Assembly: GCA_000024525.1 (NCBI GenBank)
Contig: CP001769.1
Coordinates: 2,404,001-2,468,000, forward strand
Direction: 5' to 3'
DNA length: 64,000 nt
Origin: Spirosoma linguale DSM 74
GTDB taxonomy: Bacteria; Bacteroidota; Bacteroidia; Cytophagales; Spirosomataceae
This document shows positions 1 to 9,084 of this stretch, in pieces (positions within the stretch are counted from its first letter, which is position 1; every line of letters begins with the position of its first letter). The translations under genes were made by a program, and so were the position numbers. The notes beneath the pieces are model-generated. The model was not told the origin of the DNA. It did no database searches and saw nothing but the letters and a program-made list of their open reading frames with translations.

Positions 1-1
1 G

Positions 2-1033
2 GTACATATCATTCGTCAGGTACTCCTGCTGATTTTTATAGCCATCGTCTTCATTCGCTGCGGCAATAACACGACCGATGAGGCTGCTCAGTTTTTCCTG
101 AAGGGGAATGTTCAGTTGCAGAAACGTGAGTACAAAGAAGCAATCCGGTTCTACTCAGAAGCCATCGCCAAAAAATCAGATTTTGCGGACGCCTACAATA
201 ACCGGGGGTTAGCCAAGTTTCGGGACGACGACCGGGAGGGGGCGTTGGCCGACTATACCCGGGCTGTTGAACTGGACCCTGATTTTGGTACGGCGTACTT
301 TAATCGGGCCGAGGTTCTCCTTGAAACCGGTGATGCGGCCGGTAGTGTGTCGGACTTGATGCGGATCAATAAACAATACCAGGATTCTACCTTTTATCAA
401 ACGCGTTTGGGCGACGTCTATGTACGACTGGGGAAGCAGGCCGAGGCTCAGGCAGCTTATGACCGCGCTTTGCAACTCAACCCCGATAATGTGGAGGCTC
501 TAACCAATCGGGGGGCTTTGTTGTATAGCCAGAAGGCCTATGACCAGGCCGGTGAGGACATACAGCGGGCTCTTCGGCTCAATCCAAAGCAAGATGCTGC
601 CTTGAACAACCAGAGTTTACTGCTCGCGCGTGTCGGTAATTTTGCCGAAGCGCTCGTCTATGTAGAACGTGCACTGGCTTTACAACCCCGACAGCCGTAT
701 TACCTGAACAACAAAGCGTATTTATTGCTGAAACTAAACCGGGCTTCCGAAGCACTTCCGGTGGTGCAGGAGTCTCTGCAACGCGATGACCGGAATGCCT
801 GGGCTCATCAAACCCTCGGGCTGTATTACCTGAGTCAGAAACAGGCGGACAAGGCACTTACCGAATTTCGGCAGACCGAAAAACTGGATGCGTCCGTAGA
901 TCAGGTCTATTATTATATCGGTCTAGCGGAGCAGGCCCTCAACCAGCAGCAGGCCGCCTGCGAAGCCTGGCGACTGGGCGAATTGGCCGGGGATGAACAG
1001 GCCAGAAAAATCCGGGCTCAGCAATGTAAGTAG
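2..1033 (+). CDS. TPR-repeat lipoprotein, 5' end outside window
   Basis: The frame is open from base 2 with no stop, so the gene begins left of the window; a TTG at 116 lies inside it and is not the start. The visible protein opens with a hydrophobic stretch (RQVLLLIFIAIVFIR) directly before a Cys-Gly-Asn-Asn, as in a lipoprotein signal peptide, although the Arg before the Cys is atypical. It continues with about eight tetratricopeptide repeats of 34 residues (pattern A..Y..A...NP). TPR proteins are protein-binding scaffolds; the partner is unknown. The product is probably anchored in the periplasm or outer membrane. A 15-bp inverted repeat follows the stop and separates it from convergent menD. 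Confidence 0.85.
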   Translation, partial: VHIIRQVLLLIFIAIVFIRCGNNTTDEAAQFFLKGNVQLQKREYKEAIRFYSEAIAKKSDFADAYNNRGLAKFRDDDREGALADYTRAVELDPDFGTAYFNRAEVLLETGDAAGSVSDLMRINKQYQDSTFYQTRLGDVYVRLGKQAEAQAAYDRALQLNPDNVEALTNRGALLYSQKAYDQAGEDIQRALRLNPKQDAALNNQSLLLARVGNFAEALVYVERALALQPRQPYYLNNKAYLLLKLNRASEALPVVQESLQRDDRNAWAHQTLGLYYLSQKQADKALTEFRQTEKLDASVDQVYYYIGLAEQALNQQQAACEAWRLGELAGDEQARKIRAQQCK

Positions 1034-1075
1034 GTGTTGCGTTAATTGATTAAAAAGCCGTATTTGGATAATAAG

Positions 1076-1113
1076 GGTCAATCAACTATAACTACAGGTA
1101 TAGTTAATTGACC
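1076..1113 (-). terminator. Terminator hairpin between TPR gene and menD
   Basis: The arms 1076-1090 and 1099-1113 are inverted repeats matching at 14 of 15 positions, with an 8-base loop. The single mismatch becomes a G-U pair in minus-strand RNA, so the hairpin is complete for the menD transcript and slightly weaker for the plus-strand gene. Confidence 0.6.
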
Positions 1114-1155
1114 TATTCATGTATGGTTGTAGGGGAGCCGACTACGTGTGATTGA

Positions 1156-2904
1156 TTAACGGGATTGAAACGCTTTTACCGAAGCCTTGTAGGATAAGAA
1201 CAGATCTTGATTGGCCTGTTTGTCCGTTTTTAATTCAAGGAGTTTAGCGGTGGGGGCTGGCTGGAAAAAATCGGATAGTATCTCTCCAAGTGCTCCGGGG
1301 GAATTGCAGGGTATGTACGTCAGCCCGGCATCCTGGGCGGTATTTCTGGCTGTGTAGCCGTGGGGCGTTTCGAAATAGGTTTCCAGTTCGGGTTGTCGAC
1401 TGGGCCCGTCGATGATTCGGAAGATATGCCCGCTGTCATTGTTCAATAAAATAATCCGCAGGTTGGGCGGAACCGGAGCTGACCAGAGGGCATTCCGGTC
1501 ATAGAAAAAAGCGACGTCGCCAATTAATAAGGTAACGAGTTTGTCCGTCATCAGCGCGGCTCCAACGGCCGTACTCAAACAACCGTCAATGCCACTAACC
1601 CCCCGGTTTGAGGATACACTAATTTGCTGTCGTTCGTCCAATCCGCACAGGTTAGCGTAGCGAACGGGCATACTGTTGGCCAGGTGCAGTATGGATGCAT
1701 CCGGTAGCTGGTCGAGAATCCGTTGTACTGCCAGCCAGTCGGTTAGTGGTTGGGTGGGTTCGGCAAGGGTTTTTTCAACCAGACGGGTGGCCTCTCGGTC
1801 CATGTGGTGCCATCGATTCAGGAATCCCTGCTGGTCGTCGTCCTCATCGTCGCCCTGAAGGAACCGCTGGTAGTCGACATCGGCAAAAAGTTTTTCCAGA
1901 AAGGCGAGGGGATCTGCCGGGATCAGGGTTGTCAGGCTCTGAAAGGAATCATTGATATGGTCGATGGTGGGTTGAATATGCCAGTGCCTGTGGGCCGGAT
2001 ACTGGCGCAGAAATGTTTTAAGGTTTCGGGTCAGGAAAGAGTTGCCAATCGTCAGGAGTAAATCGGGCTGTAGCGCACGCGCGTTCGTCTCCCCAATCCC
2101 GGCCAGGAATGTATCAGTCCGGGTGATGAATACGTTATTCCGGGGAATGTTTCCTACTACTTCACCAACAACGACTACCCCTGTTTCTTCACTAAGTTTC
2201 CGTAAGACGGTTAACAGAGCCGTATTGTATGGCAACTGGCCCACAGCAATCAGTGTCCGCTCGCTTTGTTCCCACTCGGTCAGCAGGCGGTGCCAGCTAT
2301 CGGTGGGTAGAGTTGGCTGAGCTGAGAGTGCCTCAATAGTCCGTACGGGTCCGTAGGCGAATGTCTCGTCGGTGGTTGGGTAGAAGGGTTCGCGAAGGGG
2401 CACATTGACATGGACGGGCCCGGCCGGGGTGAGCTGGCTCAGGGTTATAGCCTCATTAAGAGTCCGTTCGATAAACCAGCGGGCGTCGGCGTGGGTGTAG
2501 TCGGCGGGTAGGTCATAACTACGTTTTACGTGGGTTCCAAAAATACCCACCTGATTTATTGTTTGACCATCCTGCTGGTGAAGCCACTCGTGCGGCCGGT
2601 CGGCGGTTAGGAGCAGGAGGGGTACTTGTCCGAAGGATGCTTCGGCAACGGCGGGGGCCAGGTTGTAAACGGCACTCCCCGAAGTACAGATAACCGCTAC
2701 CGTCCGACGACTTTGGAGAGCCATCCCCAGCGCAACAAAGCAGGCGGAACGTTCATCTGCCATGACCCGAACCCGCAGGTGTCGGTGCCGGGCCACGGCC
2801 AGCGTCAGCGGTGCCGAGCGGGAGCCCGGTGAGACAACAACATCCGTTATACCTTTTTGATAGAGAAGTTCGGCAATGTTAACAATGGGTTGAAGAACGG
2901 GCAT
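1156..2904 (-). CDS. menD: 2-succinyl-5-enolpyruvyl-6-hydroxy-3-cyclohexene-1-carboxylate synthase
   Basis: MenD is the thiamine-diphosphate enzyme that joins isochorismate and 2-oxoglutarate in menaquinone synthesis. The 582-residue length is normal. Visible signs are the N-terminal VVVSPGSRSAPL and the ThDP-site glutamate region near residue 50 (MADERSACF), the CTSGSAVYNLAP stretch, and a C-terminal ThDP-binding segment with GVSGIDG and LIGDVAFFYD. ATG at 2904 starts 17 bases after the stop of the upstream response-regulator gene on the same strand, so it may be the last gene of the kinase-regulator transcript. Its pathway partner menC lies far away at 35.9 kb. Menaquinone is the usual respiratory quinone of Bacteroidota. 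Confidence 0.97.
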   Translation of the reverse strand: MPVLQPIVNIAELLYQKGITDVVVSPGSRSAPLTLAVARHRHLRVRVMADERSACFVALGMALQSRRTVAVICTSGSAVYNLAPAVAEASFGQVPLLLLTADRPHEWLHQQDGQTINQVGIFGTHVKRSYDLPADYTHADARWFIERTLNEAITLSQLTPAGPVHVNVPLREPFYPTTDETFAYGPVRTIEALSAQPTLPTDSWHRLLTEWEQSERTLIAVGQLPYNTALLTVLRKLSEETGVVVVGEVVGNIPRNNVFITRTDTFLAGIGETNARALQPDLLLTIGNSFLTRNLKTFLRQYPAHRHWHIQPTIDHINDSFQSLTTLIPADPLAFLEKLFADVDYQRFLQGDDEDDDQQGFLNRWHHMDREATRLVEKTLAEPTQPLTDWLAVQRILDQLPDASILHLANSMPVRYANLCGLDERQQISVSSNRGVSGIDGCLSTAVGAALMTDKLVTLLIGDVAFFYDRNALWSAPVPPNLRIILLNNDSGHIFRIIDGPSRQPELETYFETPHGYTARNTAQDAGLTYIPCNSPGALGEILSDFFQPAPTAKLLELKTDKQANQDLFLSYKASVKAFQSR

Positions 2905-2921
2905 GGGATAATCTAACAGTG

Positions 2922-3329
2922 TTAGGAAAAATACGCATCGACCAGTTCGCTGATCATGGCGATCGTTAGAGGCTTAGTCCGGTAGACATTGATTTCTGGC
3001 AGGGAACCCGCCCGCTGCCGGTCCACAAAACTGATCGAAGTCGTTAGCATTACGACAACCACTTGCCCTTTGAGTTGCGTATCGAGTTTTTGGTACTCTT
3101 CCAGAAACTCGAATCCATTCATGCCGGGCATGTTTATATCAACGAAAACGACATCGGGGCGGATATAATCGGGATGATCGGTTTGGATCAGGTAGGTAAG
3201 CGCCTGCATGCCGCTGTTTACTATTCGAACGGTATCGCACTGATTGGATTCGTCGATGACAAGCCGATGAAGAAAATTATCGTCGGGGTCGTCGTCAATT
3301 AACAGGATACAGTGAATGGGTCTGGGCAT
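2922..3329 (-). CDS. Single-domain CheY-like response regulator
   Basis: The 135-residue protein is only a receiver domain. The acidic pocket is D12-D13-D14, the phosphoacceptor is D64 in the FVDINMPGMNG motif, the switch threonine is T96 or T97 and the conserved lysine is K119 in RTKP. There is no output domain, so it must act by protein contact or pass the phosphate on. It resembles the Rcp1-like regulators that pair with phytochrome-type kinases. The start codon lies inside the upstream kinase gene (35-base overlap), which suggests translational coupling and makes that kinase its likely partner. Confidence 0.93.
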   Translation of the reverse strand: MPRPIHCILLIDDDPDDNFLHRLVIDESNQCDTVRIVNSGMQALTYLIQTDHPDYIRPDVVFVDINMPGMNGFEFLEEYQKLDTQLKGQVVVVMLTTSISFVDRQRAGSLPEINVYRTKPLTIAMISELVDAYFS

Positions 3330-4458
3330 AATGCTGACTTGTCTTGATAACTTTTGGAATTACTACATAAAATGTTGAGCCCACACCTACCGTACTGTTG
3401 AGTCCGATCTGTCCGCCATAAATGTCGATTACTTTCTTACAGGTAGCCAAACCAATGCCCGTTCCGGGGTATTCATTCCGACCGTGCAGCCGCTGAAAAA
3501 TCTGGAATACCCGATCATAGTATTTTGAATCGATGCCAATCCCGTTATCACTGACCGTAAACCGGTATTGACTTCCTTCGTCGGTGGCCCGTATTCGAAT
3601 ATGGGGAACAACGTCTGCCCGTCGATACTTAAGTCCGTTGGTAACAAGATTCTGGAATACCTGTTTCAAATCGGTTCGGTGGGCTCTGATTGTAGGGAGG
3701 GGGCCCACATCAACCGAAGCCCCGGTCGACCGTATTTCGGTTTGGTGCTCCTCCAGGATTTCGGCCAGAACCTCGTTGAGGTCCACCGTCTGAAAATCGA
3801 TATCGGTACCAACGCGGGAAAAGTCGAGCAGGTCATTGATCAGCACCCGCATCCGTTCGGCAGCCGCTGTCGACACATTGATTAATCGGACAGCGTCCGT
3901 ATCCAGTTTCTCTCCGTGTTTACTTTCCAGTAGTGTAAGGTAGTTAACGATTGTTTTGAGCGGTGACTGTAAATCATGCGATGCAATGTAGGCAAACTGC
4001 TGAAGTTCTTCATTAGAGCGGGTAAGCTCCTGCATAGCCTGCTGACGAAATGACAACTCGCGGTCATACTCTTTTGATGTACGCAGCCCAACGGCTTCAT
4101 CGAAGTACCGGATCAGAGCCAGAACGGTTGCAATGGATACCATGGCGGTACAAAAACGGATCAGGGCATTGATTCGATAGGCGGGCCACCAGAACATGAT
4201 TGCATCGAGCAAGTGGGTAAGGCCGCAGAGGAGAATGAAGGCACCAAACAGTACAAAAACACCGGATAGGGGTACGCCCTTTTTGACTAGTATAAATCGG
4301 ATTAAAATGAGTGGGATAGCCATGTAGGCCAGCCAGATGGTTAAGTCAGATACTATATAAAGCCAGCCGTGAAAGTCTGTCCATCGACCACAATACCAGC
4401 GGGGAGGCCAATCGTTAACATTTGCGAGTTGCTGAAAAAACTCGATAACTTCGTTCAT
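3295..4458 (-). CDS. Sensor histidine kinase with ethylene-receptor-type transmembrane domain
   Basis: 387 residues. The N-terminus has three membrane helices (about 33-57, 66-90, 96-118) that match the ethylene-binding domain of plant ETR1 and cyanobacterial homologues: Asp38 in the first helix, and Cys78 and His82 in the second within ILLCGLTHLL. In ETR1 the corresponding Asp25, Cys65 and His69 bind a copper ion and ethylene, and the spacing (40, then 4) is identical here. There is no GAF or PHY domain. A coiled linker leads to HisKA with phosphoacceptor His161 (ASHDLQSPLK) and a HATPase domain with N, G1 (DNGIGI) and G2 (GTGIGLA) boxes. It overlaps its regulator gene. Copper and ethylene binding is inferred from residues only. 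Confidence 0.92.
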   Translation of the reverse strand: MNEVIEFFQQLANVNDWPPRWYCGRWTDFHGWLYIVSDLTIWLAYMAIPLILIRFILVKKGVPLSGVFVLFGAFILLCGLTHLLDAIMFWWPAYRINALIRFCTAMVSIATVLALIRYFDEAVGLRTSKEYDRELSFRQQAMQELTRSNEELQQFAYIASHDLQSPLKTIVNYLTLLESKHGEKLDTDAVRLINVSTAAAERMRVLINDLLDFSRVGTDIDFQTVDLNEVLAEILEEHQTEIRSTGASVDVGPLPTIRAHRTDLKQVFQNLVTNGLKYRRADVVPHIRIRATDEGSQYRFTVSDNGIGIDSKYYDRVFQIFQRLHGRNEYPGTGIGLATCKKVIDIYGGQIGLNSTVGVGSTFYVVIPKVIKTSQHYAQTHSLYPVN

Positions 4459-4531
4459 AAATTACTAATGATGAGTAGTTTAGGCAGCTGTACTGGGTAT
4501 AATCAACTATACCAGTGTTATATTTATTAGC

Positions 4532-4539
4532 CAAATATA
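4532..4539 (-). promoter_or_regulatory. Promoter -7 element for kinase-regulator-menD operon
   Basis: Minus-strand TATATTTG matches the Bacteroidota -7 consensus TAnnTTTG and lies 74 bases before the kinase ATG. The presumed leader contains a hairpin at 4492-4516 (9 paired bases and one bulged G). Confidence 0.5.
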
Positions 4540-4766
4540 CGAGGGTACCCGGTGTTCTCCCATCTATATCCATAAATTGTATACGTGCGGGCAGCATCGT
4601 TAAACAAGCCAGTCAAACTAATTCTTTTTCCCAATTAATACAAGCCGTTGTACAGGTACCTTGTCAATTTTTGAGTTACTTTGTTTAGCTAGTTGGCCTA
4701 TAAACGTCCCTGTTCATAAACGAAGTAGGCATTGGCAGCGTTATTATCAGGAAAACGATCACCTGC

Positions 4767-5711
4767 ATGAACCGTATTACCTTTGAGAATGAGGATGAGA
4801 TCCGGGTAAAGTCCCTGGCTGGTGCTATTATCATCAACGTGATTTTAGTCGCCCTGCTATTGCTGGTCAACTTATCCCAGACTGTTCCCAATCCGCCCCC
4901 CATTGAGTTTGTAGAGGTTAATTTTGGTACCGACGCCCGTGGCAGTGGACGTATTCAAACCTACAATAAAGCGTCAGACTCCCCTAATCCGGTGGATGTT
5001 AAGGCCGCTGATAAACGACCAAATCCAAAGGTAAACACTACGCCCCGAGTAGAAAAGACCCGCGTTACCCCGTCACCAAAGGTGGAGGATGTAAAACCGG
5101 CCAAAACCGCTACGGAGAAACCAATTATTGCCAGTAAATCGGAGAGTCCCGTTACGACGCCCGAGCGCCCTGAACCCAAGCGGGTTGAATCCGCTAAGCC
5201 AACGGCTCCGGTAGAGCGTCCAGCTCCTCCGGCCCCGCCCAAAAAGGTGGAGACGGTCAATAACGACGCCCTGTTCAAGAAATCATCCGGTGGAGGAGGT
5301 TCCAATGGAACGGTTGGGAAAGCCTCCGGAACAGGTGGTAACAATAATGGTGACGACGCCAGTGGGGTAGGTGATAAAGGCAACCCTAATGGGAAGATCG
5401 ATGCCAAAGCACTCTATGGTACTCCGGGGGGGAGCTCTTCCGGTGTGAATTTTGATGTCTCGGGTTGGTCTTTGGCCAGCCGTCCCAGCATCAGTGATGA
5501 TTCGGATGAAACGGGGAAGATCGTTTTTAAGATAACCGTAGATGGGGAAGGTGAAATAATCCGGGTTCAAACCCAGCAGACAACGGTTAGCCCGTCGGTA
5601 GTAGAAGTGTATCGGAAAGCGGTGCAACGACTGCGTTTGCGGCCAAAAGGGGGCGCAACACCACCAACCGCAAGCGGTACCATAACATTTATCATTAAGT
5701 CAAAAGATTAA
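4767..5711 (+). CDS. TonB-like energy transducer protein
   Basis: 314 residues with a typical TonB layout. There is a short cytoplasmic N-terminus, one membrane anchor (about 17-37), then a long Pro/Lys/Glu-rich periplasmic spacer (about 45-165), a Gly/Asn-rich flexible section (about 170-215) and a C-terminal domain (about 235-314) with the GKIVFKITVDGEGEI pattern of TonB C-terminal domains. TonB proteins carry proton-motive energy from the inner membrane to outer-membrane receptors. No ExbB or ExbD gene is adjacent. The TAA stop overlaps the folC ATG by one base, so the two are translated from one message. It could be a divergent TonB paralogue serving a specific receptor. Confidence 0.8.
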   Translation: MNRITFENEDEIRVKSLAGAIIINVILVALLLLVNLSQTVPNPPPIEFVEVNFGTDARGSGRIQTYNKASDSPNPVDVKAADKRPNPKVNTTPRVEKTRVTPSPKVEDVKPAKTATEKPIIASKSESPVTTPERPEPKRVESAKPTAPVERPAPPAPPKKVETVNNDALFKKSSGGGGSNGTVGKASGTGGNNNGDDASGVGDKGNPNGKIDAKALYGTPGGSSSGVNFDVSGWSLASRPSISDDSDETGKIVFKITVDGEGEIIRVQTQQTTVSPSVVEVYRKAVQRLRLRPKGGATPPTASGTITFIIKSKD

Positions 5712-6997
5712 TGCAGTACACGGAAGCAATCGACTATTTATATAGTCGGCTCCCAGTTTTTCATCGAATTGGCCCCAAAGCCATAAAGCCGGGTTTAGGA
5801 AATACCTTATTACTGTGCGAAGGGCTTGGAAACCCGCATCAGCAGTTTACCAGCATTCACGTTGCCGGAACAAACGGGAAGGGGAGTACCTCCCATATGC
5901 TTGCAGCCATTTACCAGTCGGCAGGGTACCGCGTTGGCCTATATACGTCACCCCATCTTAAATCGTTTACAGAGCGGATACGACTAAATGGACGGCCTAT
6001 CCCGGAAGAGGAAGTTGTTCGTTTTGTAGAGCAGCAGCAACCGTTGATAGAATCGGTTGAGCCTTCTTTTTTCGAAGTAACGGTTGCCATGGCCTTCTAT
6101 TTCTTTGCTCGTCACGCCGTTGACATAGCCATTATTGAAGTTGGCCTGGGAGGGCGTCTCGATTCTACCAATGTAATCACTCCTATTGCTTCGGTTATTA
6201 CCAATATAGGCTATGATCATACCGATATACTGGGGGATACGCTCCCGCTGATAGCCGCCGAGAAAGCGGGTATTATTAAACCAGGGGTTCCGGTTATTAT
6301 TGGTGAGTCACATCCAGAAACACAGGAGGTATTTACATCCGTATCGGCATCGCTTCAAGCCCCTATAACCTTTGCTGATCGACAGTATCTGGTAAATGAT
6401 TTAGGTTTGGTTGACGGAATTCGGCAGGCCTCTATAAGCCGTGGTGATGGGTCTGGCTGGCTTGCTCAACTCGACCTATTGGGAGCTTACCAACTTAAGA
6501 ACCTCCCCGGTGTTTTTGCAACTGTTGAACAATTGCAACAGCAGTTCCCCGTTACAGCGGCTCAACAGCAGGAGGGGCTCGCTTCGGTAAGTTTATTGAC
6601 GGGATTAAAGGGCCGTTTTCAAACGCTGGGTTCACATCCCAGGGTTATTGCAGATACTGCCCATAATCAACCTGGTTTGGAAGCCCTCTTCGATACGATA
6701 CGATCTATACCTTACAAAACGCTTCGTATTATTATTGGCCTTGTGGCAGATAAAGATCGTAGTAAGGTCCTATCTGTATTACCCACAAATGCCGTTTATT
6801 ATTTTTGTCAGGCGAATACTCCCCGCTCATTATCGGCTCAGTTATTACAACAGGAAGCGCGTGTTCTTGGCCGTATAGGGGATGTATTTACTGATGTAAA
6901 TACTGCTTTAGCGGCAGCCCTAGAGCAGGCTGACCCTGATGATTTACTGCTCATAACCGGCAGTAATTATACCATTGCTGAATTAACCAATTTATAA
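5711..6997 (+). CDS. folC: Folylpolyglutamate synthase / dihydrofolate synthase
   Basis: FolC adds glutamate to dihydropteroate and to folates in the cytoplasm using ATP. The 428-residue length fits the Mur-ligase superfamily. The ATP-binding loop is the GTNGKGSTSHML motif near residue 50. Further family signatures are SPHLKSFTERIR, EVGLGGRLDSTN and a C-terminal domain with VIADTAHNQPG. It is joined to the upstream TonB-like gene by a one-base overlap and is followed two bases later by trmB, so the three form an operon. Confidence 0.96.
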   Translation: MQYTEAIDYLYSRLPVFHRIGPKAIKPGLGNTLLLCEGLGNPHQQFTSIHVAGTNGKGSTSHMLAAIYQSAGYRVGLYTSPHLKSFTERIRLNGRPIPEEEVVRFVEQQQPLIESVEPSFFEVTVAMAFYFFARHAVDIAIIEVGLGGRLDSTNVITPIASVITNIGYDHTDILGDTLPLIAAEKAGIIKPGVPVIIGESHPETQEVFTSVSASLQAPITFADRQYLVNDLGLVDGIRQASISRGDGSGWLAQLDLLGAYQLKNLPGVFATVEQLQQQFPVTAAQQQEGLASVSLLTGLKGRFQTLGSHPRVIADTAHNQPGLEALFDTIRSIPYKTLRIIIGLVADKDRSKVLSVLPTNAVYYFCQANTPRSLSAQLLQQEARVLGRIGDVFTDVNTALAAALEQADPDDLLLITGSNYTIAELTNL

Positions 6998-6999
6998 AC

Positions 7000-7662
7000 G
7001 TGACTCGTAGAAAATCTCATCGCTTTCTTCAAAATGCAGAGAGTACAAATGTAATTGAATCTGGTAAACCACTTTACAAAACAATACTTGGTCGTTGGAG
7101 GACCGATTTCTTCGGGAACGATAATCCAATTGTTCTTGAACTAGCCTGTGGAAAAGGTGAATATACGGTAGGTTTAGCTCAGGCTTTTCCAGATGTAAAT
7201 TTTATTGGCGTTGATATTAAAGGAGACAGGATCGCCCGGGGTTCTAAAATCGCCCAGAACCTGGGTTTATCGAATGTAGCGTTCCTACGAACGGACATTA
7301 ACTTTCTGGGTGAATTCTTCGCTAAAGGGGAAATCAACGAGATCTGGATCACTTTTCCCGACCCACAGCCAAGACCAAAACAGGAGAAACATCGGCTGAC
7401 GCATTCTCGTTTTTTAGCTATGTACCAATCCTTGCTAGTTCCGGGAGGGACGTTGCACTTGAAGACTGATAACCCTGAACTGTTTGCTTACAGTTTGGAG
7501 CAGGTTCAAGCAGCACAAGGAAGGGATTTACAATATACAACTGACTTGTATAACTCTCCGCTGAATGAAATCCACCTGGGCATAAAAACCAAGTACGAAC
7601 AAATCTTCTTTGACAAGGGATTTACAATTAACTATTTACAATGTAAAATGGGTGTGATTTAA
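7000..7662 (+). CDS. trmB: tRNA (guanine-46-N7)-methyltransferase
   Basis: 220 residues, starting with GTG two bases after the folC stop. TrmB methylates N7 of G46 in the tRNA variable loop using S-adenosylmethionine. The SAM-binding motif is ELACGKGEYTVGLA with the acidic GVDIKGDR end of strand 2, and ITFPDPQPRPKQEKHRL carries the family's catalytic and tRNA-contacting residues. The last five codons and the stop codon form the left arm of the terminator hairpin that follows. Confidence 0.95.
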   Translation: MTRRKSHRFLQNAESTNVIESGKPLYKTILGRWRTDFFGNDNPIVLELACGKGEYTVGLAQAFPDVNFIGVDIKGDRIARGSKIAQNLGLSNVAFLRTDINFLGEFFAKGEINEIWITFPDPQPRPKQEKHRLTHSRFLAMYQSLLVPGGTLHLKTDNPELFAYSLEQVQAAQGRDLQYTTDLYNSPLNEIHLGIKTKYEQIFFDKGFTINYLQCKMGVI

Positions 7663-7679
7663 TAAAATCACACCCATTT
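7646..7679. terminator. Bidirectional terminator between trmB and gap
   Basis: Perfect 15-bp inverted repeat, arms 7646-7660 and 7665-7679, with a 4-base loop. The left arm includes the trmB stop region. It lies between convergent trmB and gap and can serve both. Confidence 0.75.
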
Positions 7680-7772
7680 GTAAATTAACTATTGTAATAA
7701 CTTTTATGGTTTACAAGTTAATTATGTAAATTTAATATGCTTAATTAATTTGTAAACTTACATATTACATTA

Positions 7773-8807
<1,035 letters not shown>

Positions 8808-8836
8808 TTAATAAGGCTATATAGGTAAAAAGAAAT

Positions 8837-9084
8837 TACTAATACATGGGATAAGCAGAAATAGAGAAGATAAGAATTTAGCAAAACAAAAAACAAGTTT
8901 TTAGTAAATAACATTTAGTATTGCGGAATATTAGTTAATTAGCAAGTAATTACTAATTAATTGTAGTATTTTTAGTATATTTTGCTAATATTTATTAGTA
9001 TTTACTAACATTGTAACTAAAATACTAATATACCCATTAGGTTTTACTAAAATATTCTCGACTCCTTTTAAATCTGATTACTAA
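8837..9084. repeat. Cluster of ten TACTAA/TTAGTA hexamers upstream of gap
   Basis: The hexamer TACTAA or its complement TTAGTA occurs at 8837, 8901, 8915, 8951, 8972, 8995, 9003, 9023, 9045 and 9079, in mixed orientation. Even in AT-rich DNA fewer than one copy would be expected by a simple composition estimate. The cluster begins about 35 bases upstream of the gap -7 element. It could be an array of regulator sites or a decayed repeat. Confidence 0.6.

Follow-up and report, generated by a model that had tools for sequence, protein, structure and literature searches.

Measurements of ethylene perception exist for very few bacteria. In AzoEtr1 of Azospirillum brasilense Sp7, residues 1-130 fused to GST are reported to confer saturable ethylene binding in yeast, and just downstream lies AzoRR-etr1, a 135-aa regulator described as having no other output motif (PMC11819568). 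SynEtr1 (Slr1212) of Synechocystis is described as combining an ETR1-type domain, a light-sensing GAF domain and a histidine kinase, with phosphotransfer to a regulator that activates a small RNA (PMC7700396, PMC11819568). The plant receptor ETR1 of Arabidopsis is described as possessing a GAF domain and a fused receiver, residing in the ER membrane and relaying its signal mostly by way of a Ser/Thr kinase (PMC13012798, PMC11819568). Seven residues are reported to be required for ethylene binding in ETR1, of which D25, C65 and H69 are named, and ethylene is reported to inhibit the ETR1 kinase, with indirect evidence for the same effect in SynEtr1 (PMC11819568). According to one review, the outputs of bacterial ethylene receptors range 'from simple to complex' (PMC7700396). 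No study of ethylene perception in Bacteroidota was found among the literature matches listed.

In the genome of Spirosoma linguale DSM 74, we analysed a stretch of 64,000 nucleotides (the window, to which the coordinates below refer) and found a histidine kinase gene with the following features:

3295..4458, minus strand: ETR1-type sensor histidine kinase of 387 aa, an ORF with an ATG start in which ETR1_N, HisKA and HATPase_c all score above the Pfam cut-off
4090..4371, minus strand: ETR1_N sensor domain (Pfam PF25487), residues 30-123, found at the same place by the genome search, with three predicted membrane helices in the model
4006..4089, minus strand: linker, residues 124-151, without a domain in Pfam, lying in a continuous model helix from residue 128 and within the fixed Cys78-His161 spacing
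3808..4005, minus strand: HisKA dimerisation/phosphoacceptor domain, residues 152-217, containing His161 (Pfam, 47.6 bits)
3352..3678, minus strand: HATPase_c catalytic domain, residues 261-369 (Pfam, 82.1 bits)

The initial annotation had proposed an ethylene-receptor-type sensor on a bacterial histidine kinase, with no GAF or light-sensing domain in between, and had named a profile match of the N-terminus to another family as evidence against it. Both parts of this proposal were borne out, the Pfam scan placing the N-terminus in ETR1_N rather than in an unrelated family (106.4 bits against a cut-off of 27, E = 9e-31) and detecting no GAF, light-sensing or other domain at residues 123-152. 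When the source genome (8,491,258 bases in 9 contigs) and 14 control genomes were searched in the same way, none of the controls matched the ETR1_N profile, which, together with the E value, indicates that the match is not due to chance. NCBIfam gave 88 matches to the kinase, and the 25 listed were kinase models, each below its own cut-off. By Pfam, the protein has neither the chromophore-binding GAF of SynEtr1-type ethylene/light receptors nor the GAF plus fused receiver of plant ETR1, its receiver being a separate gene. In the predicted structure (mean pLDDT 81.7, pTM 0.62, 33 sequences), the helices at residues 28-58, 65-87 and 94-123 have lengths fit to span a membrane, and a helix at 128-184 runs unbroken into the kinase. 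Hydrophobic stretches agreed with these membrane helices but left helices 1 and 2 unseparated. No solved structure matched the sensor domain by sequence (none at E <= 1), and the 50 rows listed of 518 Foldseek matches were histidine kinases or complexes given without aligned ranges, and hence uninformative on the sensor.

A profile search of 200 genomes of the family located ETR1_N in 67 of them, at 68 places, comprising 43 minimal kinases, two broken frames (L019 and L069) and 23 places that differ, 18 of them encoding 532-551 aa and five 369-451 aa. To define the minimal kinases, we took the family places encoding 370-420 aa and set aside L007, L012 and L042 by hand because the kinase half differs (L012 gave no HisKA match); L066, with 369 aa, HisKA, a spacing of 83 and no similar regulator, lies outside the length range and is uncounted among the 43. 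For wider comparison, we used an alignment of 166 rows, 142 non-fused and 24 fused to a copper ATPase (see below), without the two broken frames, L104 (the place of L089) and L135, the last of which lies at a contig edge. The residues of the putative copper/ethylene site, the presumed basic partner and the outer Cys are encoded as follows:

4345..4347, minus strand: codon of Asp38 (= ETR1 Asp25), D in 43/43 minimal relatives
4225..4227, minus strand: codon of Cys78 (= ETR1 Cys65, copper ligand), C in 43/43 minimal relatives and 165/166 wider rows
4213..4215, minus strand: codon of His82 (= ETR1 His69, copper ligand), H in 43/43 minimal relatives and 165/166 wider rows
4156..4158, minus strand: codon of Arg101 (= ETR1 Lys91, AzoEtr1 Lys98; presumed Asp partner), R in 42 and K in one of the 43 minimal relatives, K/R in 138/142 non-fused rows
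4390..4392, minus strand: codon of Cys23, 15 residues ahead of the Asp and outside the Pfam match, C in 43/43 minimal relatives, 137/142 non-fused rows and 0/24 fused rows

The annotated spacing of Asp38, Cys78 and His82 (40 and 4, as in ETR1) is right, and the three residues read D, C and H and sit in predicted membrane helices. Residues Y45, I48, P49 and I75 are present at the same +13 offset, and we take them to be the counterparts of ETR1 Y32, I35, P36 and I62, the remaining four of the seven binding residues. All seven (D38, Y45, I48, P49, I75, C78 and H82) are found in the Spirosoma kinase, at relative positions like those of Asp25, Cys65, His69 and the four others in plant ETR1, whereas ETR1 Lys91 is replaced by Arg101. 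Besides these seven, C23, H30 and D85 are invariant in the 43 minimal kinases, and in every one of them the phosphoacceptor His161 follows Cys78 at a distance of 83 residues, as counted with a stricter pattern (a looser pattern caught an earlier site in L052 and read 72). In the 66 readable family places, both Cys and His were retained in all 66, Asp, Tyr and Pro in 65 each and the outer Cys in 64; thus, close orthologues have kept the Cys/His pair, the loss of which the initial annotation had named as evidence against its proposal. Cys23 may be a copper entry point or a dimer link.

Among genomes of the same genus, ETR1_N was present in 21 of 34 and the gene was absent from the other 13, indicating that the kinase is an accessory gene without a core function. 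In two family genomes (L019 and L069), the gene contains in-frame stops, pointing to decay. This patchy presence in the family (67/200 genomes) and the stops in two of the 68 places would suit a housekeeping kinase in which the ETR1_N domain serves merely as a membrane anchor; however, an anchor would not be expected to have invariant polar residues within its predicted membrane helices or a helix of unvarying length, and we regard this explanation as very improbable. When 136 sensor domains were placed on a tree, those of the minimal kinases fell together on one side of a branch (SH-aLRT 95, 31 rows), within a starred group of Bacteroidota comprising 55-56 rows. The tree, which covers 136 of the 166 rows (L110, L068 and 28 near-identical rows being left out), was built from few columns with a quick search, and only its starred branches are relied on.

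The closest characterised relative is similar in both the receptor and its neighbour. AzoEtr1, matched in a plasmid record, shares 33.9% identity with the Spirosoma sensor (E = 1e-11), and its ORF is 525 aa from a start fitting the published length, with C20, D35, C75, H79 and K98 in place. Like the Spirosoma kinase, it has ETR1_N, the same seven residues, a Cys 15 residues ahead of the Asp and a histidine kinase, but it is longer (525 aa), places a PAS domain between the sensor and the kinase, and carries Lys98 where the Spirosoma protein has Arg101. Directly downstream of the Spirosoma kinase gene is a second gene:

2922..3329, minus strand: stand-alone response regulator of 135 aa, likely phospho-partner (Pfam Response_reg, 51.6 bits)

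The regulator and kinase genes overlap by 35 bases (3295-3329) and likely encode cognate partners. The regulator, with Asp64 as phosphoacceptor by inspection, consists of a single receiver domain without an output domain, and should therefore act by protein contact. With HisKA, HATPase_c and Response_reg all present, the locus has the kinase plus regulator layout of bacterial ethylene receptors; AzoRR-etr1 and the Spirosoma regulator are both of 135 aa, output-less and directly downstream of the kinase. At the sequence level, the Spirosoma pair copies the AzoEtr1/AzoRR-etr1 layout minus the PAS domain. SynEtr1 shares the ETR1-type domain, the histidine kinase and phosphotransfer to a regulator, but the Spirosoma kinase lacks the GAF domain reported for SynEtr1, and its regulator is a receiver only rather than an activator of a small RNA (PMC7700396, PMC11819568). 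A similar regulator lies directly downstream of 30 of the 43 minimal kinases, in 26 cases at exactly the Spirosoma offset, while for the other 13 no similar regulator was found, the first listed downstream ORF being on the opposite strand. As a predicted protein, the Spirosoma kinase is a sound new addition to the bacterial ethylene-receptor kind, in a minimal form and with a well-conserved partner.

Within the phylum, 21 of the 395 genomes searched contain ETR1_N, and so do 18 plasmid records, including those of Azospirillum, cyanobacteria, Novosphingobium and Rhizobium. The initial annotation had regarded the absence of a GAF domain as setting this kinase apart, but the GAF-less layout is the commoner one in its own family (43/68 places) and is not confined to it. 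For example, six other short relatives scanned, from the Bacteroidota family f24, Methylococcaceae, Novosphingobium, Nostoc, Rhodospirillales and Oscillatoriaceae, all consisted of ETR1_N and kinase domains alone, neither GAF nor PAS being found when matches below cut-off were ignored. In the kinases of f24, as in the Spirosoma kinase, the sensor is joined to the kinase without GAF or PAS, but the spacing from Cys to phosphoacceptor is 94 residues (6/6) versus 83 in the Spirosoma clade, and the lead-in is the usual MPHGxCY, whereas that of the Spirosoma clade is WPPRWxCG-like. The 11 residues of longer spacing in the f24 group (L096, L097, L100, L105, L106 and L107) would keep the helix in phase.

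By analogy with bacterial ethylene receptors, these data are probably best explained by a two-component sensor that depends on copper and detects ethylene or a small ligand like it, the Spirosoma kinase probably being a gas sensor. This reading is supported by the ETR1_N score of 106.4 bits, the seven residues invariant in 43/43 minimal kinases, the fixed 83-residue spacing, the homology to AzoEtr1, for which ethylene binding is reported, the co-occurrence of the Asp with a basic partner in most relatives and the joining of relatives of this domain to copper ATPases (both described below), which links the domain to copper in bacteria. Cu(I) would be held between Cys78 and His82 in the three-helix membrane domain, and Asp38 would position the copper site and pair with Arg101 of helix 3, as suggested by the Cu(I) site and the Asp-basic residue pair reported for ETR1 and AzoEtr1 (PMC11819568; PMC13012798). 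Ethylene, or a similarly small olefin-like gas, arriving at the copper would shift helix 3, and because there is no middle domain and the length is constant, this shift may be relayed directly to the kinase through a single unbroken helix. Both His161 and the regulator would thereby be phosphorylated to a different extent, and to a lesser one if the direction is assumed to be that of ETR1, with motility or surface/biofilm behaviour as the most likely output, as in Azospirillum and Synechocystis. Several observations count against this reading, namely the non-core status of the gene, the 13 of 43 minimal kinases without a regulator, the lack of a copper ATPase nearby and of ACC deaminase, the distant relative L110 (described below) and the literature searched, in which no ethylene-binding data for any Bacteroidota member were found.

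The neighbourhood of the kinase points to neither copper nor ethylene. No copper genes were recognised among the ORFs at 1-9000, and a Pfam scan of four neighbours revealed no copper gene, one neighbour being without any match. The Cu-ATPase family had 14 matches in the genome, five of them above cut-off, and none in the 64-kb window. An association with ethylene physiology through ACC deaminase (TIGR01274) was tried and rejected, since none of the 200 family genomes had a match above cut-off and there was nothing to associate; matches at E <= 0.001, present in 184 of the 200, look like weak paralogue matches. The initial annotation had suggested a soil or plant-associated host, but with this result, and with the type strain of S. 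linguale being called free-living (PMC3035282), plant association is not shown.

Outside the window, we found ETR1_N domains joined to copper ATPases in a single chain, a result more surprising than the Spirosoma kinase itself:

L090:2440-7038, plus strand: copper-ATPase-ETR1 fusion
L091:4889-9487, minus strand: copper-ATPase-ETR1 fusion
L109, L114-L133 and L136: further fusions, with in-frame ATPase motifs

A long protein encloses ETR1_N in three of four sampled genomes of one Bacteroidota genus. The complete one, L090, is of 1532 aa and contains a heavy-metal-associated (HMA) domain, a P-type ATPase with a copper-type CPC motif, ETR1_N, PAS, HisKA and HATPase_c. Named genome contigs were then scanned with the fusion's own ETR1 domain as query, and among the best 80 of 582 confirmed loci, ATPase motifs occurred upstream of ETR1_N in the same frame in 21, a proportion that is not a frequency because of the query used. 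All three motifs were present in 20 of the 21, and a single one in L124, which runs into a contig edge. Together with L090, L091 and L109, which were assigned to the fusions manually (L109 shows the ATPase motifs although a contig edge truncates it), these give 24 fusions. The 21 are labelled as Bacteroidota, Geobacter and another deltaproteobacterium, Verrucomicrobia/Opitutia, Acidobacteria/Thermoanaerobaculia, one Clostridiaceae and one 'bacterium', labels that are soft since all 21 come from MAGs. Pfam scans of five fusions found HMA, ATPase and ETR1_N in all five and HisKA plus HATPase_c in four (not in L133), and the Geobacter fusion (L121) lacked the PAS domain. All 24 retain the Tyr, both Ile, the Pro, the Cys and the His, but have Asn at the position of Asp25 and Asp at that of Lys91, and none has the outer Cys 15 residues ahead of the Asp. 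In the tree, the fusions clustered with the unfused but similar L134 in a single starred group (SH-aLRT 99, 22 rows left after thinning). The Asn/Asp swap is not confined to fusions, as it also occurs in L144, which is unfused and retains the outer Cys. We found no description of an ATPase-ETR1 fusion among the matches listed from the open literature.

One may ask whether the ETR1 domain of the Spirosoma kinase senses copper itself, with Cu(I) occupancy of Cys78/His82 as the signal and no gas involved. The Cys and His ligands are indeed among the most conserved residues (165/166 rows each), and the 24 fusions carry the same domain with Asn replacing Asp25, a change reported to cut ethylene affinity about 100-fold (PMC13012798). 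However, the Spirosoma kinase, with no P-type ATPase ahead of ETR1_N and the domain starting from residue 30, retains Asp38 and its basic partner Arg101, unlike 24/24 fusions, the window holds no copper ATPase, and the characterised relative AzoEtr1 is reported to bind ethylene (PMC11819568), making direct copper sensing unlikely for this protein. To a similar degree, we doubt that the kinase is a copper-dependent sensor of another small molecule, such as carbon monoxide, acetylene, isoprene or another volatile, or oxygen, given that all seven ETR1 ethylene-binding residues are retained. In favour of such a ligand, a number of small pi-acceptor molecules can coordinate to Cu(I) sites, and two ORFs just ahead of the L090 fusion gene (L090:1-2204, plus strand) presumably encode cytochrome bd oxidase subunits. 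The description of the host as free-living is also consistent with it (PMC3035282).

Asp and Lys/Arg occur together in 138 of the 142 non-fused rows, and the four rows without the Asp are also without the basic partner. On the tree, these correspond to two independent changes, both in step, which are too few for significance. A pairing of outer-Cys loss with Asp loss was considered and rejected, since L144 and L098 lack the Asp yet retain the Cys. Two distant ETR1_N relatives score about 52 bits, L089/L104 and L110, the latter having Asn and Tyr at the Cys and His positions. The ETR1_N fold can thus exist without copper ligands and is by itself no proof of copper, and the name given to the domain in Pfam does not establish ethylene as the ligand.

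A broader scheme, which we offer tentatively and hold to be rather doubtful as a whole, is that bacterial ETR1 domains are basically Cu(I) modules of the membrane which a copper pump can load directly, ethylene sensing being one use of them that is fixed by the Asp-Lys/Arg pair. The Spirosoma kinase would be the shortest form, its sensor wired to the kinase part through a helix of constant length; in the fusions, the pump would hand copper to the receptor within one chain, the outer Cys would be unneeded, Asp-Lys would have become Asn-Asp, and copper flux or another ligand would be sensed. How RAN1 passes copper to the receptor 'has not been fully elucidated' (PMC13012798), and the ATPase fusions bear on this question since pump and receptor are one chain there; they deserve a study of their own. 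Attempts to crystallise full-length ETR1 are reported to have been unsuccessful (PMC12643061). A receptor of 387 aa in which a fixed helix connects sensor and kinase, without any domain in the middle, offers a simple subject for studies of binding, signalling and structure.
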